Origin: Minisyncoccota bacterium
Lineage (GTDB): Bacteria; Patescibacteriota; Minisyncoccia; Minisyncoccales; Minisyncoccaceae
Direction of reading: 5' to 3'
Length of the DNA stretch: 37,368 nt
Assembly (NCBI GenBank): GCA_028693895.1
Contig: JAQUUL010000003.1
Location: forward strand, 1 to 37,368
The notes under the pieces: model-generated
What the model was told of the DNA's origin: nothing
The model's database searches: none
What the model saw: the letters and a program-made list of their open reading frames with translations, nothing else
In this document: positions 2-30,846 of the stretch, in pieces
Layout: each line of letters opens with the position of its first letter
Numbering within the stretch: the stretch's first letter is position 1
Position numbers and translations under genes: made by a program

Positions 2-883
2 CCTTCATCAGAAAGACGAATTAAAAATAATTATCATTATGTATATTTAATGTATAGAGATGATATTGGCTGGAGGATTGGGAAAACAGATAACTTATTC
101 GGAAGATTAATACTCGAAAGATCAGCAGACAGTATTATAGGGTTAAGAGATTTTGATAGTGATTCTGAAGCAAGATATTATGAAACATTATGGTCTTTGA
201 AGTACGGAATTCCTACGAGTTGTTTTTGTGAAAGGGAAGGAACCGTTATTAAAAAAGAATTACTTCGTAAGCTTTACGAGGAAATAGATGTTTCGAAGGG
301 AGTCATAACTCTTGCTAGAGATTTAAATATTGATTTAAATACACATCATTGTTATTCGGGTGGAGTGAATAGAGGAGATAAGAAGAGAGTTAAAATTAAT
401 ATTGTGATGTGTTCAAGAAATAGCAGAATTAAAAATGCAAAATATATTATAGAGAATCCAAAAATTATACATACACTAAATCTTAATACTTCGATTAAAG
501 AGGTAATTAATAAATTAGAGAAAGCAGGTTTTAAATTAGCAAAATCCAAAAATGGAAAAAAATTAGTTATAAGTAGTACCGATATACGGGAGATAGGCAA
601 AAAAGCTGAAGAGTTTCAGAATCTTTTGGGTGGTTTTATAGATTTTAAATTTTATGCAGGACTTGGACTCGATGTTAAAAATAAGAAAAGAAAAAATAAC
701 CCAGCAAAAGTTATTCCTGCCAAAAACTTGTTAAGAGGACATTATTTGCCAATTAAGAGAGGAAACGATGTTGTTTATGATGAAATTATTGATATTAAAA
801 GAGAAAGCAAAACAGTTGATGTTTATGACCTAGAAGTAAAGGGGACTCATAATTTTATTGCTGAAGAAATTGTTGTTCATAAT
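2..883 (+). mobile_element. Intein (C-terminal portion; N-terminal splice block outside window) inserted in the helicase before the SIxSFxG motif; N-terminal part of the visible segment resembles a GIY-YIG fold
   Basis: C-terminal splicing block VYDLEVKGTHNFIAEEIVVHN followed by Ser (+1 nucleophile); the downstream sequence resumes at SIFSFQGS, the conserved DDQ|SIYxFRGA position. YVYLM...GWRIGKT...EARYYETLWSLKYGIPT resembles the GIY-YIG core. Confidence 0.85.
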
Positions 884-3046
884 TCAATCTTTTCCTTTCA
901 AGGAAGTTCGTTTAATAATGTTTTAAGATTTAAAAAAGATTATCCTAAATCTAAAGAAATTGTTCTAATAGAAAATTATAGGTCCCCTCAAAATGTTCTT
1001 GATTTGTCATATAATTTTATTCAAAAGAATAATCCTAATAGGTTGGAATGTAGATTAAATGATCCAGAAATATCTATAGAAGCAGAGAAAAAAGGAATAA
1101 ACTTAAATAATTTTGAAGGAATAAGTAAAAAATTAAAAAGCAATAAAGATAAAAAAGGTATAGTTGAGTTATTAAGTTTTGAAGGATTTGACGAAGAAAT
1201 TACAGGTGTAGTTAATAAGATTTGGGAAATTAAAGAAATAGATGATGAATCTTCTTTTTCTAGTTTTTCTATTTTAACAAGAAATAATAGTACTGCTGAT
1301 ATATTTTCTCGGGCGTTAGAAAGAGCAGGTATTCCTTATCAATTCATTTCTTCTAAAGGCTTATATACCGATCCATTAATAATAGATATTATTTCATACT
1401 TGAAGGTTGTTATTAATTTCTATGATTCTCTAAACTTTTATAGAGTTTTAAGATTAATGAATTTTTCTCCAGAAGAAGTTTCAACAATAATACAATATAG
1501 CGATAAGAAAGGAACACCTATTTTTGAAGTTCTTAAAGATAATCATTTATTAAGTAAGTTTGTGCCTAAAACAAAAATTAAGATTAATAAATTAATTAAA
1601 AATCTTAATTCCCATTATGATATTTCTAAAGAAAAAAATGTCAGTGAAATTTTTGTAAATGTTATTCAAGACCTTGAATATGGTAAATATATTCCAGATA
1701 ATACAGAAGATGGATTTAGGAAATGGGAACTAATTGACCAATTTTATGAAAAAATTAAAGAATTTGAAAGCTCTCAGGTAGATGTAAGACTTCCTGCCTT
1801 TATTGAAAATATTCAAATGGAATTAGATGCTGGAGAAGAGGGGTCATTAAAGAAGAATATTGATTCTCATTTTGATGCGGTAAAGATAATGACAGTTCAT
1901 TCAGCAAAAGGATTAGAGTTTGATTATGTTTTTCTTCCATATTTAGTTTCAAGAGTTTTTCCTTCTGATCAAAAAAGAGATCCAATAGAACTGCCTATTG
2001 AGTTAATTAAAGAAGTTTTGCCAAAAGGAGATTTTCATATACAAGAAGAAAGAAGGCTCTTTTATGTTGCTTTAACAAGAGCAAAAAAGGGAATGTTTTT
2101 AACATGGAGCGCTGACCATGGAGGAAAACAGTTGAAAAAACCATCAAGATTTTTAATAGAATCAGAACTTATTAGTGAGGATATAATTAAAACTCAAAAA
2201 TTTGAAAGAAATCCAGATTTTTGCATAAAAAGAACTTTAAGTTTCAAAAAAGAATCAGATGAAACAAATGGATCAGGAAGAGATTTGAAACTTTTTATGC
2301 CTGATCATTTTTCTTATTCTCAATTAGAATCTTTTAGAAAGTGTCCGTTAGAGTATAAATTTAAGAATATATTAAAAATACCAATAAGAGGGAAACCAGT
2401 TTTTAGCTTTGGAAAAACTATTCATGCTACAGTTCATAGATATGCGATGGAAGCACTTAAAAAAGAACAAACAAGTATTTTTAACAATAATTTAGATGAG
2501 ATTTATAATATATATAATGAAGAATGGATTGATAATTGGTATAGATCAGTAGAAGAGAAGAATGAATTTTATGATAAAGGAAAAGAAATACTTAAAAATT
2601 TCTATAACAATTTTAAGGAAGATTGCAATATACTTTTAATCAATAATGAATTAGCCTTAGAAAAATCATTTCAACTTAAAATAAATGGTGATATTATAAT
2701 AGGTACAATTGATAGAATTGATGAAGTAAAAGGAGGTGTTGAAATTATTGATTATAAGACCGGTTCTCCTAAAAAAACATTAACTAAAGAAGATAAACTT
2801 CAATTATTAATATATGCATTAGCTTCTAAAAAAGTTTTAGGGCTTAATCCAGTTAAACTAACATATTATTACTTAGAAGATTGTTCTAAGGCATCATTTA
2901 ATGTTAAAGATGAAATTATTGAAAAAACAGAATTAGAATTAAAAGAAATAATTAATAAAATAAAAAGAAGTAACTTTAAGCCTTCTTCTGGCTGGCATTG
3001 TCAGTTTTGCGACTTTAGAGATATTTGTGTTCATAAAAAAAATTAA
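2..3046 (+). CDS. UvrD/PcrA-type superfamily 1 DNA helicase, C-terminal part (5' truncated by window), containing an intein; C-terminal PD-(D/E)XK nuclease domain with Cys cluster
   Basis: Frame is open to the window edge (PSSERRIKNNYHYVYLMYRDD... upstream of the listed ATG at 50, so 50 is not the real start). Helicase motifs: SIFSFQGSSFNNVLRF, ENYRSPQNVLDLS, VKIMTVHSAKGLEFDYVFLP, EERRLFYVALTRAKKGMFLTW. Nuclease motifs: FSYSQLESFRKCPLEYKF, GTIDRIDEVKGGVEIIDYKTG, WHCQFCDFRDIC. Confidence 0.9.
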   Translation, partial: PSSERRIKNNYHYVYLMYRDDIGWRIGKTDNLFGRLILERSADSIIGLRDFDSDSEARYYETLWSLKYGIPTSCFCEREGTVIKKELLRKLYEEIDVSKGVITLARDLNIDLNTHHCYSGGVNRGDKKRVKINIVMCSRNSRIKNAKYIIENPKIIHTLNLNTSIKEVINKLEKAGFKLAKSKNGKKLVISSTDIREIGKKAEEFQNLLGGFIDFKFYAGLGLDVKNKKRKNNPAKVIPAKNLLRGHYLPIKRGNDVVYDEIIDIKRESKTVDVYDLEVKGTHNFIAEEIVVHNSIFSFQGSSFNNVLRFKKDYPKSKEIVLIENYRSPQNVLDLSYNFIQKNNPNRLECRLNDPEISIEAEKKGINLNNFEGISKKLKSNKDKKGIVELLSFEGFDEEITGVVNKIWEIKEIDDESSFSSFSILTRNNSTADIFSRALERAGIPYQFISSKGLYTDPLIIDIISYLKVVINFYDSLNFYRVLRLMNFSPEEVSTIIQYSDKKGTPIFEVLKDNHLLSKFVPKTKIKINKLIKNLNSHYDISKEKNVSEIFVNVIQDLEYGKYIPDNTEDGFRKWELIDQFYEKIKEFESSQVDVRLPAFIENIQMELDAGEEGSLKKNIDSHFDAVKIMTVHSAKGLEFDYVFLPYLVSRVFPSDQKRDPIELPIELIKEVLPKGDFHIQEERRLFYVALTRAKKGMFLTWSADHGGKQLKKPSRFLIESELISEDIIKTQKFERNPDFCIKRTLSFKKESDETNGSGRDLKLFMPDHFSYSQLESFRKCPLEYKFKNILKIPIRGKPVFSFGKTIHATVHRYAMEALKKEQTSIFNNNLDEIYNIYNEEWIDNWYRSVEEKNEFYDKGKEILKNFYNNFKEDCNILLINNELALEKSFQLKINGDIIIGTIDRIDEVKGGVEIIDYKTGSPKKTLTKEDKLQLLIYALASKKVLGLNPVKLTYYYLEDCSKASFNVKDEIIEKTELELKEIINKIKRSNFKPSSGWHCQFCDFRDICVHKKN

Positions 3047-8418: not shown

Positions 8419-9474
8419 ATGGATTTTCCAATTTCAAAAATTAAAATGGGAAATGATAAAAAGTTTAATTTATCAGACCCAAAAGAAAGAGAAGAATATT
8501 TCAAGTTAAAATGTGGACCCGAAATAGAAAAACTAAGAGAGTATTTAAAAACAAATACTTTTATCGCTTACTTATTAGGCAAAAAGAATTCTGGAAAAGG
8601 AACTTATTCAAAAATGTTTTCTGAAGTTATTGGAGGAGATATGATAGAGCACTTATCAGTTGGAGATATGGTAAGAAGTATTGATGAAGAAGTTCAAGAC
8701 CCTGAGAAGAAAAAAGAATTAGTTGAATTCCTTGAAAAACATTACAGAGGATTTTATTCACTAGATGAAATTATTAAAAGCTTGGAAGATAGAGATACTA
8801 AAAGTTTATTGCCTGATGAAGTTATTTTAGTTCTAGTTAAAAGAGAAATATCTAAAAGACAAGGGAAAGTTATACTATTAGATGGTTTTCCTAGAAACTT
8901 AGATCAAGTAGGGTTCTCATTATTCTTTAGAGATTTAGTTGAGTATAGAGATGATCCAGACGTTTTTGTTTTAATAGATGTTCCAATGAATATAATTAAT
9001 GAAAGAATTAAATGGAGAAGAATTTGTCCAAAATGTAATACTTCAAGAAGTCTAAAACTTCTTCCAACTTCAAAAATTGAATATGACGAAACAACAAAAG
9101 AATTTTATCTAATATGCGATGAACCAAATTGTGATGGAGGAAGAATGATTATGAAAGAAGGAGATGAAAAAGGAATAGAACCAATTAAAGAAAGATTGTT
9201 AATGGATGAAGAAATATTAAAGAGAGCATATTCATTGTACGGAGTTCCAAAAGTATTGTTAAGAAATGCTATTCCTGCAGATGTTGCTCAAGAATATGTT
9301 GATGATTATGAAATGACTCCGGGATATTCTTTTAAATATGCTGATGGTAAGGTTGAAACAATTGAAGAGCCTTGGATTGTTGCTGATGATGAAGGTGTTC
9401 AATGTGTTAGTTTGCAAGCTGCTCCAGTAGTTGTTTCAATGATTAAACAGCTTGTTGAAGTTTTGAAAATATAA
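8419..9474 (+). CDS. Adenylate kinase-like nucleoside monophosphate kinase with extended N- and C-termini
   Basis: AYLLGKKNSGKGTYSKMF P-loop, HLSVGDMVR, VILLDGFPRNLDQV, zinc-like LID CPKC...CDEPNCDGG, PIKERL. Confidence 0.8.
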   Translation: MDFPISKIKMGNDKKFNLSDPKEREEYFKLKCGPEIEKLREYLKTNTFIAYLLGKKNSGKGTYSKMFSEVIGGDMIEHLSVGDMVRSIDEEVQDPEKKKELVEFLEKHYRGFYSLDEIIKSLEDRDTKSLLPDEVILVLVKREISKRQGKVILLDGFPRNLDQVGFSLFFRDLVEYRDDPDVFVLIDVPMNIINERIKWRRICPKCNTSRSLKLLPTSKIEYDETTKEFYLICDEPNCDGGRMIMKEGDEKGIEPIKERLLMDEEILKRAYSLYGVPKVLLRNAIPADVAQEYVDDYEMTPGYSFKYADGKVETIEEPWIVADDEGVQCVSLQAAPVVVSMIKQLVEVLKI

Positions 9475-25951: not shown

Positions 25952-26632
25952 ATGAACAAAAATCCATTAGTTTTAATTTTGCTTGGTAAGTCTGGTGCTG
26001 GAAAAGGCACACAATTAGATTTATTAAAAAATAATCTTAAATTAGATTTTATTGGTACGGGAGAGCTTTTGAGAAATAGAAAAAAGATAGAAGATTTTAC
26101 GGGCAAGAAAATTGCTGATGTGATAGATAATGGCGGTATTATTGCTACCCCAGTTCCATTTAAGTTATGGATGGATTCTTTTGAGAATATTAAAAATAGT
26201 GGAGATATTGAAAACGGTCTTATTATTGATGGTTCTCCAAGAAAAATTAAAGAAGCATGGTTATTAGATGATGCATTAGATTGGTTTGAATGGAATAAAA
26301 GAGTAAAAATTATTCTTATTGATATTTCTAACGAAGAAGCTATTTCTAGACTTACTAGAAGAAAGACTTGTCCTCAATGTGGTAAAATTATGATGTTTTC
26401 AAAAGATATGGAGGATATAGAAAATTGTCCTAACTGTGGAAGTAAACTTGTAAAAAGACAAGATGATACTGCTGAAAGAATTCAAAAAAGATTAGAATGG
26501 TTTGACGATGAAGTTGGGCAAGTTATCAAATATTACGAAGACAACAATAAACTTATAAGGGTAAACGGAGAACAAAGTGTAGATGATGTTTATAGCGATA
26601 TAATAAAAGCTATTGAAAATGATAACGATTAA
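25952..26632 (+). CDS. adk: Adenylate kinase
   Basis: ILLGKSGAGKGTQLDLL, IGTGELLR, IIDGSPRKIKEAWLL, zinc LID TCPQCGK...CPNCGSKLVKRQDDT. Confidence 0.92.
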   Translation: MNKNPLVLILLGKSGAGKGTQLDLLKNNLKLDFIGTGELLRNRKKIEDFTGKKIADVIDNGGIIATPVPFKLWMDSFENIKNSGDIENGLIIDGSPRKIKEAWLLDDALDWFEWNKRVKIILIDISNEEAISRLTRRKTCPQCGKIMMFSKDMEDIENCPNCGSKLVKRQDDTAERIQKRLEWFDDEVGQVIKYYEDNNKLIRVNGEQSVDDVYSDIIKAIENDND

Positions 26633-27633: not shown

Positions 27634-28089
27634 ATGTTTTATGAATTGCAAACTTTTTTAATAGCAATGACACCCATTTTTGAATTAAGGGGTTCTATTC
27701 CAATTGCTTTATTTCAATATAATTTATCTATTAATTCAGCTTTTATTTTTTCAGTATTAGGAAATATATTTTCTTCAATAATTATTCTCCTTTTTTTAGA
27801 TAAAGTATCAATGTTTCTTTCGCAAAAAAGCAAGCTATTTAATAAATTTTTTGAATGGCTTTTTTCAAGAACGAGAAGAAAACATCAAAAAAAGTATGAA
27901 AAGTTTAAAGAGTTATTTCTAGTTATCTTTGTTGCAATTCCATTACCAGTAACGGGAGCTTGGACTGGTTCTTTATGTGCTTTTCTTTTTGATATACCTT
28001 TTAAAAAATCTTTTCCTTTGATATCATTAGGAATAATAATAGCAGGTATAATAGTTACAATAATTAGTCTAGGAATAAAAATTATATGA
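27634..28089 (+). CDS. Small multi-drug export protein (SMEP, PF06695-like) membrane protein
   Basis: MFYELQTFLIAMTPIFELRGSIPIAL, FVAIPLPVTGAWTGSLCAFLF, multiple TM segments. Confidence 0.85.
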   Translation: MFYELQTFLIAMTPIFELRGSIPIALFQYNLSINSAFIFSVLGNIFSSIIILLFLDKVSMFLSQKSKLFNKFFEWLFSRTRRKHQKKYEKFKELFLVIFVAIPLPVTGAWTGSLCAFLFDIPFKKSFPLISLGIIIAGIIVTIISLGIKII

Positions 28090-28739
28090 ATAAATTAATT
28101 ATAGCAAATTGGAAGTGTAATCCACCAACAATAGAAGAAGCCAAAGAATTATTTGAGAAAATTAAAGACAATGCTTTAGAAAAAAATGTTGTTATTTGTC
28201 CGCCTTCAATATTTCTTTCATCTTTAATTTGCGAAGGAATAAAGTTTGGAGTCCAGAATTGTTTTTGGAAAGAGAAAGGTGCTTTTACTGGAGAAATATC
28301 TCCTCAGATGATTAAAAGTCTTGGTGTAAACTATGTTATTATTGGACACTCAGAAAGAAGAAATATATTAAAAGAAACTAATGAAGAAATTATTCAAAAA
28401 ATTAATGAAGCTGTTAGGGCAGGTCTAACCCCAATCGTTTGTATTGGAGAATCTAAAGGAGAAGATACTTTTGAGGTATTAAATAATCAAATTAAAGATA
28501 TAGACGAAAATATCATTTTAGCTTATGAGCCATTATGGGCCATTGGAACAGGGGAGAGTGCACCAATTGAAAAAGTAAAAGAAGTAAAAAGTTTTTTGAA
28601 AGATAGAAAAGTTCTTTATGGGGGAAGTGTTAATTCTCAAAATGCTCCAAATTATTTAGAAATAACAGACGGTCTTTTAGTTGGCGGAGCGTCTCTTAAT
28701 TCAGAAGAGTTTTCTAAAATTATATTGTGCGACATTTAA
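28086..28739 (+). CDS. tpiA: Triosephosphate isomerase (short form)
   Basis: LIIANWKCNPP, GAFTGEISPQMIKSLGVNYVIIGHSERR, AYEPLWAIGTGESAP, YGGSVNSQNAPNY, GLLVGGASL. Confidence 0.95.
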   Translation: MNKLIIANWKCNPPTIEEAKELFEKIKDNALEKNVVICPPSIFLSSLICEGIKFGVQNCFWKEKGAFTGEISPQMIKSLGVNYVIIGHSERRNILKETNEEIIQKINEAVRAGLTPIVCIGESKGEDTFEVLNNQIKDIDENIILAYEPLWAIGTGESAPIEKVKEVKSFLKDRKVLYGGSVNSQNAPNYLEITDGLLVGGASLNSEEFSKIILCDI

Positions 28740-29692
28740 TTCTTCATATCTTTTCCGCTATGAAATTGCCTGTGAACATCTCTTAATCTTTTATTAGTAA
28801 CATGAGTATATATTTGTGTGGTGGCAATATTTCTATGTCCCAAAAATTCTTGAATTGTTCTCAAATCAACTCCTTGTCCAAGTAAATCAGTTGCATAACT
28901 ATGCCTTAAAGTGTGAGGAGTTGTAAAAAAAGGAATATTTGCTAATGTGGCATACTTCTTTACGATTCTTTCTATTGAACGAGGCGTTAAACGGGCCTCT
29001 AAAGCTGTTTTAGACCTATAATTGATAAATAGAGCCTTCTCATCATCTCCGCGTGTTTTGAGGTAATTTTTAACCCAATCTAATGCTCTTTTTGAGAAAT
29101 ATACAGTTCTAGGATGATTTCCTTTACCTATAATACTTATTTCAAGGTCTTCTTTGTTTTCTATGTTCTTAAATTGTTCTTTATTCAATGCGACTAATTC
29201 AGCTATTCTTAATCCTGTAGAAAATAATGATTCAAGTATCGCACGATCTCTTAAACCGCTCATGTTTTCTATATTAGGAGCAAGTAATAATTTTTCTATT
29301 TGATCCAGCGTTAAGAACTTTATAGTTTTTTCTTTTTGAGCATCTTTAGATAGTTTTATCTTATCAGCTGGTAAAGAGATAACATCTTTATCAGTGAAAA
29401 AGCTTAAAAGGGCTCTTAAGGCAATTAAATAGTAATTTTGAGTAAGCTTAGACAATGGCTTATTTTTTTCATCTTTATATCTAGCCAAGTATAATCTATA
29501 ATTCCAAACTTCTTCAGGAGTTAATTGATGAGGAAGTAAATCTTTTTTATTTGTAATTAAAAGCCAGTCAGTAAACTTTTTTAAATATCTGCTATAATTT
29601 TTTTGAGTATTATCTGATAGTCCTTTTTCAATTTCACAATAATCGAGAAAGTCAGGAATATGCTTGATTATGGGCTTATTTGAATTATCCAT
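28736..29692 (-). CDS. Tyrosine recombinase, XerC/XerD family
   Basis: N-terminal SAM-like DNA-binding domain (LDYCEIEKGLSDNTQKNYSRYLKKF), catalytic GLRIAELVALN, PHTLRHSYATDLLGQGVDLRTIQEFLGHRNIATTQIYTHV. Confidence 0.95.
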   Translation of the reverse strand: MDNSNKPIIKHIPDFLDYCEIEKGLSDNTQKNYSRYLKKFTDWLLITNKKDLLPHQLTPEEVWNYRLYLARYKDEKNKPLSKLTQNYYLIALRALLSFFTDKDVISLPADKIKLSKDAQKEKTIKFLTLDQIEKLLLAPNIENMSGLRDRAILESLFSTGLRIAELVALNKEQFKNIENKEDLEISIIGKGNHPRTVYFSKRALDWVKNYLKTRGDDEKALFINYRSKTALEARLTPRSIERIVKKYATLANIPFFTTPHTLRHSYATDLLGQGVDLRTIQEFLGHRNIATTQIYTHVTNKRLRDVHRQFHSGKDMKN

Positions 29693-29711
29693 ATATTAAT
29701 TGTCGCTTAAC

Positions 29712-29972
29712 CTACATTGTACGACATTTATGATTATATATCCTTACACCCCTTTTTGTCAACAATAAAGGATGACATATGTCATCCCATTCAATTTTGG
29801 CGCTATAATTTATAGCGGCATTGGCGAAGATACTTATAAGAGCACTCCTTTCTCTCTTATCAAGCTTCTTCTCAATCTCTACGATTTTATTAAGAGCTTC
29901 TCTGATTTTTCCGTTTTCTGCAAGCTCTTTTACTGTTCCAAAATTTTTTAGATTGTAAATAACTCTGTCCAT
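29712..29972 (-). CDS. Hypothetical small protein with strong promoter and SD
   Basis: MDRVIYNLKNFGTVKELAENGKIREALNKIVEIEKKLDKRERSALISIFANAAINYSAKIEWDDICHPLLLTKRGVRIYNHKCRTM; preceded by AAGGTG SD-like motif. Confidence 0.55.
   Translation of the reverse strand: MDRVIYNLKNFGTVKELAENGKIREALNKIVEIEKKLDKRERSALISIFANAAINYSAKIEWDDICHPLLLTKRGVRIYNHKCRTM
29733..29762 (-). promoter_or_regulatory. Promoter for the Xer recombinase gene
   Basis: Minus strand TTGACA (complement 29757-29762) - 18 nt - TATAAT (complement 29733-29738). Confidence 0.6.
29770..29787. repeat. Perfect 18-bp palindrome GGATGACATATGTCATCC (operator-like)
   Basis: Read directly; lies 7 bp upstream of the -35 box of the xer promoter. 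Confidence 0.8.
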
Positions 29973-29989
29973 TTTCAATCACCTTATAT

Positions 29990-30018
29990 ATCATAATAAT
30001 ATATTAATATATTGTCAA
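29990..30018 (-). promoter_or_regulatory. Near-consensus sigma-70 promoter for ORF 29712-29972
   Basis: Minus strand TTGACA (complement 30013-30018) - 17 nt - TATGAT (complement 29990-29995), overlapping the uppS stop codon. Confidence 0.65.
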
Positions 30019-30701
30019 GAGCCTTTTCTTCTTTCTCTTTCTGAATAATTTTCTATGGCTTTTTCAAACTCTTTTCCTTTGAAATCAGGGAAAAGTTTAT
30101 TTGTGAAATATAATTGAGAGTATGATGTTTTCCACATCATAAATCCAGTTGAATTATGAGGATCATCTTTACAGCCAGTTCTAATAATAAAATCTACATC
30201 AGGAAGATTTTTTGTCCAAAGATTTTCCTTTATTTTTTCTTCTGTTACTTCCCCTTTAATTTTTTTAATACAATCAATCATTTCATCTGTTCCGTTGTAT
30301 GCCATTAAAAAGGTTAACAAGAAATTATTATAATCTTTAGTGCAATCTATTGCTTTTTCCATAGCTATTTTAGTAGATTCAGGAAAATATTCTTTCCACT
30401 TCCCTATTATTTGTATCTTAACCTTGTTTTTGTGTATGTCTTCATTGTTAATTACTCTATTGAATTGGTCCTCAAACACTATAAAAAGGTTTCTAACCTC
30501 TTCTTTTGTTCTTTTTGTAATATTGTCTAAAGAACTTCCCCAAAAGGTAAAATAAGGTATTTTAAGGCTTAGAACGGTATTTAATATATCTTCTAGTGTT
30601 TCTGCTCCTTTTTGGTGCCCCATTAAGGTAAAAAGTCCTTTTTTTTGCGCCCAACGTCTATTTCCATCAGGAATTAATGCAACATGTTTTAGAATATTCA
30701 T
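30015..30701 (-). CDS. uppS: Polyprenyl (undecaprenyl) diphosphate synthase
   Basis: KHVALIPDGNRRWAQKKGL, HQKGAETLEDIL, YFTFWGSSLDNITKRTKEEV, DVDFIIRTGCKDDPHNSTGFMMWKTSYSQLYF. Confidence 0.93.
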   Translation of the reverse strand: MNILKHVALIPDGNRRWAQKKGLFTLMGHQKGAETLEDILNTVLSLKIPYFTFWGSSLDNITKRTKEEVRNLFIVFEDQFNRVINNEDIHKNKVKIQIIGKWKEYFPESTKIAMEKAIDCTKDYNNFLLTFLMAYNGTDEMIDCIKKIKGEVTEEKIKENLWTKNLPDVDFIIRTGCKDDPHNSTGFMMWKTSYSQLYFTNKLFPDFKGKEFEKAIENYSERERRKGS

Positions 30702-30846
30702 ATGTTATTATTATTGGCTCTTTTTTTTGATTTTTAATATATATACAACCTAAAGAAAAGAAAAAAGAACAAATTAAAGCTAATAAAATAATGTTAATTA
30801 TAGTATCTCTTTTTTCTTTGACAAAATTGATTATTTTTGATAGCAT
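30667..30846 (-). CDS. Small single-TM protein (59 aa), not in ORF track
   Basis: MLSKIINFVKEKRDTIINIILLALICSFFFSLGCIYIKNQKKEPIIITYEYSKTCCINS*; overlaps the uppS start by 35 nt; fills an otherwise empty gap. Confidence 0.55.
   Translation of the reverse strand: MLSKIINFVKEKRDTIINIILLALICSFFFSLGCIYIKNQKKEPIIITYEYSKTCCINS

Follow-up and report, generated by a model that had tools for sequence, protein, structure and literature searches.

What is the function of the short region between uppS and the tyrosine recombinase gene xer, which packs two promoters, a small ORF, an 18-bp palindrome and two further inverted repeats into a few hundred base pairs of a Patescibacteria (Paceibacterota) genome? 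A sequence-only reading took this dense regulation for a self-regulated small-protein/recombinase cassette, with the 18-bp palindrome bound by the small protein or serving as a Xer site. All of the elements that it listed (promoters, palindrome, 17-bp repeat, TGTCG...CGACA repeat and small ORF) are present where it placed them. Our analysis points to another interpretation, namely that the island is, with a probability of roughly 0.92, the single-recombinase Xer/dif chromosome-dimer-resolution module of this genome, located at the replication terminus. At the sequence level it is supported by the build of the site, its extreme conservation, a copy number of about one per genome, its linkage to xer and its position at a GC-skew switch, together with a single Xer and an FtsK gamma domain.

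Organization of the uppS–xer region

The window, i.e. the whole stretch of DNA analysed (37,368 nt), is an entire contig (C33) of a 479-kb genome in 44 contigs that is 96.6% complete. Genes lie on the plus strand up to tpiA (28086–28739) and mostly on the minus strand from xer (28736–29692) onward. The neighbours of xer include the housekeeping genes uppS and tpiA, and the order uppS, small ORF, xer, tpiA is kept in the other congeners as far as their contigs reach. The following features are referred to below:

28736–29692, minus strand: xer, single Xer tyrosine recombinase, 318 aa, XerD-like (PF00589, PF02899)
29700–29727, minus strand: dif-like recombination site ATGTCGTACAA-TGTAGG-TTAAGCGACAA, with left arm at 29717–29727, 6-bp centre at 29711–29716 and right arm at 29700–29710 (basis: invariance, copy number, xer linkage, GC-skew switch)
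29733–29762, minus strand: xer promoter TTGACA-N18-TATAAT, 12/12 consensus bases, in all four congeners with a spacing of 17–18 bp
29769–29788, minus strand: terminator-like hairpin (the 18-bp palindrome) at the 3′ end of the small ORF, from a terminator scan; T-run weakened in this species
29801–29817, no strand: 17-bp inverted repeat CGCTATAATTTATAGCG in the small ORF
29712–29972, minus strand: genus-specific small ORF, 86 aa from ATG, with homologues at the same place in G001, G002 and G003
29990–30018, minus strand: small-ORF promoter TTGACA-N17-TATGAT, 11/12 consensus bases, overlapping the uppS end and conserved in G001 and G002

The region from uppS to xer was aligned between this genome and three congeneric species (G001, G002 and G003). 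Column identity across the four species averages 66%. The small ORF and its flanks show little conservation, but almost no changes occur between the −10 box and the xer ATG.

Several other features of the window deserve mention in their own right. A UvrD/AddB-like helicase-nuclease frame at 50–3046 (plus strand) begins with about 280 residues that match an intein splicing domain (PF14890, 3e-12); the intein-like part ends ...VVHN before a serine, and the N-terminal part of the host gene and intein falls past the contig edge. A 59-aa small membrane-like ORF at 30667–30846 (minus strand) overlaps the uppS start, with a similar frame at the same place in G001. There are also two adenylate-kinase-like genes, at 8419–9474 and 25952–26632 (plus strand), the first of which is long (351 aa) and matches ADK only partially.

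A dif-like site lies immediately upstream of xer

The TGTCG...CGACA inverted repeat (29722–29726/29701–29705) is the outer part of a 28-bp site in which a 6-bp centre separates two partly inverted arms of 11 bp, which is the architecture of dif. Arm symmetry is only partial, with 7 of 11 positions matching. The site ends 7 bp from the xer ATG, and both the 28-mer and its link to the ATG are unchanged in 4/4 congeneric species despite diverged surroundings, the bases TAAATGTCGTACAATGTAGGTTAAGCGACAATTAATATATG being identical in all four. Given the 11-6-11 build, a single exact copy per genome, and a consistent location on the upstream side of xer, the element is very probably the dif site of the chromosome, at which Xer resolves joined chromosomes once replication ends; in this lineage of ultra-small bacteria it is part of the leader of the recombinase gene itself. 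In proposing a Xer site among the inverted repeats here, the earlier reading was right in kind, but it named the 18-bp palindrome, which is terminator-like and replaced in G002, rather than TGTCG...CGACA.

The pattern GTCGNACAA-N6-TTAAGCGAC occurs without mismatch once each in 18 of 21 genomes of the family, while the backwards pattern, used as control, gives 2 matches in all. Exactly one match is present in 17 of the 18 site-bearing genomes, and the remaining one has an extra match with 1 mismatch. Within the family the centre varies, reading TGTAGG, TGTACC or TGTACG, as does one base of the left arm. All 17 genomes that show both site and gene on one contig have the site upstream of xer and oriented like it, with 7 to about 240 bp between them; in the 18th genome the site falls at the end of a contig.

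Linkage of the site to xer extends well beyond the family. Among 74 Patescibacteria xer loci drawn from a public genome collection, 70 have a dif-like 28-mer scoring above 13 bits within 700 bp upstream of xer, compared with 0 matches above 13 bits in the downstream control. The 70 related sites yield an 11-6-11 consensus and fall mainly into three types: GTCGCACAA-TGTAGG-TWAAGCGAC, which is in the direction of xer, and TTCGCACAA-TATATG-TAAAACGAA and ACTTCGCATAA-TGTATA-TTAAT, which are both opposite to it. The dif site of E. coli is GGTGCGCATAATGTATATTATGTTAAAT, and the third type is close to this canonical site; some of the xer-linked sites are nearly canonical (ACTTCGCATAATGTATATTAAT...).

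In other classes of Patescibacteria, site and gene are frequently separated. A motif scan within 1 kb of xer had suggested that most of these genomes have no dif, a view overturned by a genome-wide search, which covered 20 of them and finds a dif match elsewhere in 19. Furthermore, of 60 other-class genomes, 21 have a lone half-site, GTCGYAYAAT, in the 150 bp before xer, versus 0.7 expected, making it about 30 times commoner there than in the rest of those loci. Of the genomes whose xer promoter holds such a half-site, 13 were searched, and every one has a fuller match to dif at another place.

G206, G177, G264, G261, G217, G192 and others (L239, L236, L267, L269, L240 and L250) carry a lone TGTCGYACAAT 20–90 bp upstream of xer, and one near-palindromic full dif, e.g. 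GTCGCACAATGTATCTTGTGCGAC, elsewhere in the genome. In family f105 (L271, L272, L273 and L274), a different, strongly palindromic dif-like site adjoins xer, e.g. AGTTAACATAA-TGCATT-TTATGTTAACT. In family f67 (G172, G188, G202, G215, G240, G252, G263, G292 and G302), the sampled genomes are 95–99% complete and show no Xer relative at E ≤ 1e-20; another recombinase may act there, or dimer resolution may have been lost.

The site coincides with the GC-skew switch

The position of the site relative to GC skew is clearest in G085, a closed genome of 661 kb. Its cumulative GC-skew maximum is at 422,268 and its dif at 422,295–422,318, i.e. 27 bp away; about 72 kb of this genome was read as N, which leaves the maximum unaffected. 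The sign change in G091 lies no more than about 1 kb from dif. Skew in the window stays at about +0.2 to +0.35 up to 28 kb, flips at the site (29–30 kb) and is negative between 29 and 35 kb; because the genes also change direction there, it is confounded with gene strand. In G206, of another class, the full dif is within a few kb of where skew changes, and some 170 kb separate it from xer. No clear switch marks dif in the distant G299, where skew is uninformative.

A single XerD-like recombinase and an FtsK with a gamma domain

The product of xer matches PF00589 (3.8e-38) and PF02899, and the catalytic residues R-K-H-R-H-Y are visible in the aligned sequence. It is the only PF00589 protein found in this nearly complete genome, and orthologues are found phylum-wide, usually one per genome. 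The closest relatives in named records are from Patescibacteria / Candidatus Paceibacterota (UBA2558, STD2_206 and others). Among solved structures, the best match is E. coli XerD (1a0p, 1.5e-36), with XerH far weaker (4.4e-11). The genome also encodes one FtsK of 727 aa with membrane, alpha, motor and gamma domains, the last matching PF09397 at 4.3e-28.

These components suggest a mechanism in which the single Xer, encoded 7 bp downstream, would bind both dif arms, bring together the two dif sites of a chromosome dimer at the division septum, and carry out strand exchange in the 6-bp centre. The likely activator would be FtsK, which here has a gamma domain.

The xer promoter ends at dif

The near-consensus promoters described in the sequence-only reading are confirmed, and both are conserved wherever congener sequence is present. 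They are also two of the three best promoter matches in the surrounding 3.5-kb stretch; the stretch as a whole is nonetheless not enriched in promoter-like sites (23 found versus 17.9 ± 4.6 expected).

A gap of 5 bp separates the −10 box of xer from dif, and the predicted transcription start falls on the first bases of dif. Where dif has the direction of xer at other loci, the distance from the end of a good promoter to dif is often exactly 11 bp. Overall, a promoter matching at least 10 of 12 consensus bases is placed at dif in 31% of 62 loci, versus 1.1% of shuffles. Since dif starts some 6 bases past the −10 box, bound Xer would cover the transcription start, and the site is thus probably also an operator that limits Xer synthesis. 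Xer may in this way repress its own gene. Loci whose dif type points against xer usually show no promoter that ends there, and the operator role may therefore be confined to this lineage.

Binding of Xer to its own promoter region would be the simplest reading of the promoter and half-site data taken together. More tentatively, and at somewhat less than an even chance, Patescibacteria Xer may generally autorepress through a dif-type sequence: many classes would keep a dedicated half-site in the xer promoter together with a distant full dif, and in Paceibacteria operator and dif would have merged into one site that doubles as a switch for the recombinase gene and keeps xer tied to the terminus.

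The small ORF and the palindrome are bystanders

The small ORF (88 aa if the alternative TTG start is used) shows an excess of changes at third codon positions (42 versus 26/26 and 42 versus 32/18), so it is probably a real, fast-evolving gene. Homologues were found in no genus but this one, where all four species have it between uppS and xer. It has no match above the cut-off in Pfam, and its matches outside the genus are weak and mostly pieces of unrelated long frames; assignment to a known family was accordingly rejected. The last part of the ORF is read-through past an ancestral stop, which G001 and G003 retain (CAT TCC TAA) and this species has lost, into the xer promoter and dif. The stop loss lets the frame run toward xer, which explains why the palindrome appears inside the ORF.

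The palindrome itself, GGATGACATATGTCATCC at 29770–29787, is exact and folds as a hairpin of −11.1 kcal/mol (z −4.1). Each of the three relatives also has a hairpin at this position; three of the four species retain the 18-bp palindrome, and in G002 a hairpin of unrelated sequence followed by T8 replaces it. It looks like the terminator of the small gene. A search for further copies found it to be single-copy in the genome, even with 2 mismatches allowed, and its copy number, terminator position and replacement in G002 led us to reject it as a Xer site or operator. The 17-bp inverted repeat is not conserved in the three relatives and was likewise set aside as a functional element; it probably arose by chance. 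A structured leader RNA was also discarded, a search of the region against Rfam giving no match. We conclude that the small ORF and the palindrome are bystanders to dif and xer.

Alternative explanations

The element might serve only as an operator of xer, or as a hairpin in its mRNA leader, with no role in recombination: it lies at the predicted transcription start and folds weakly as RNA (−7.3 kcal/mol, z −3.2), and the lone half-sites near xer in other classes resemble operators. A purely regulatory element is nevertheless unlikely. Spacing from xer is variable within the family, sometimes placing the site well upstream, two of the three dif types are oriented against xer, the consensus approaches canonical dif, and other classes have the full site far from xer, as in G206, where it is near the skew change.

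A mobile or self-regulated unit, in which the small protein binds the 18-bp palindrome and thereby controls xer, would fit the coding-type substitution in the small ORF, its adjacency to xer in 4/4 congeners and the conservation of the palindrome in three species. However, the small ORF was found in no other genus while xer and the dif element stay, an outcome that counts against the unit by the refutation test of the sequence-only reading itself; the palindrome sits where a terminator belongs, and synteny is vertical rather than mobile, the small ORF standing between uppS and xer in all four species instead of at variable loci. Such a unit is very improbable; what stands of the proposed self-regulation is the plausible action of Xer on its own site. 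A tyrosine recombinase that adjoins its presumed site could also point to an integrated mobile element (IMEX or integron-like) carrying an integrase and attachment site of its own, but this is hardly credible given housekeeping neighbours in the same order in congeners, one site copy per genome, phylum-wide and usually single Xer orthologues, and no second site bounding an insert. The single-recombinase Xer/dif module remains the preferred reading.

Relation to known Xer systems and significance

Linked single-recombinase modules are known as XerS/difSL in streptococci, XerH/difH in epsilonproteobacteria, and in some archaea (PMC5357621, PMC2731167). In streptococci and lactococci, the single tyrosine recombinase gene is immediately beside dif, forming one terminus module (PMC5357621, PMC2731167), as in the arrangement described here. 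However, difSL is 31 bp with an 11-bp centre, whereas the present site is 28 bp with a 6-bp centre, and the present Xer best matches XerD among solved structures. The module thus works like the linked single-recombinase modules but is not XerS/difSL proper, since its site is of the canonical 28-bp form and its protein XerD-like. XerH/difH of Helicobacter and Campylobacter shares the genetic linkage of a single recombinase to its site, but XerH is the far weaker sequence match, and difH resembles difSL rather than canonical dif (PMC2731167).

Archaeal XerA/dif has a single recombinase and a 28-bp 11-6-11 site, linked as a xerA/dif module in some species (PMC5357621), and is in these respects like the present system; it is, however, reported to be FtsK-independent, whereas an FtsK with a gamma domain is present here. 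XerCD/dif, found in E. coli and most bacteria, shares the 28-bp site, the XerD-like protein and FtsK gamma, and the left arm and centre of the family consensus have CGCAYAATGTA in common with canonical dif. The differences are that one recombinase replaces two and that dif lies in the promoter region of the recombinase gene rather than unlinked. A single-recombinase system has recently been found in Legionellales (PMC9765430); this XerL/dif belongs to a different lineage.

A search of the open-access literature gave no paper that links dif to Patescibacteria or the candidate phyla radiation, and chromosome-dimer resolution in Patescibacteria seems to be previously undescribed. The module provides a comparison case for the independent XerS and XerH modules, and autoregulation by Xer can be tested directly by way of the xer-promoter half-site. 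Our results suggest that the reduced Patescibacteria keep Xer, dif and an FtsK with a gamma domain, and a reliable dif motif would mark the replication terminus in thousands of uncultured genomes.
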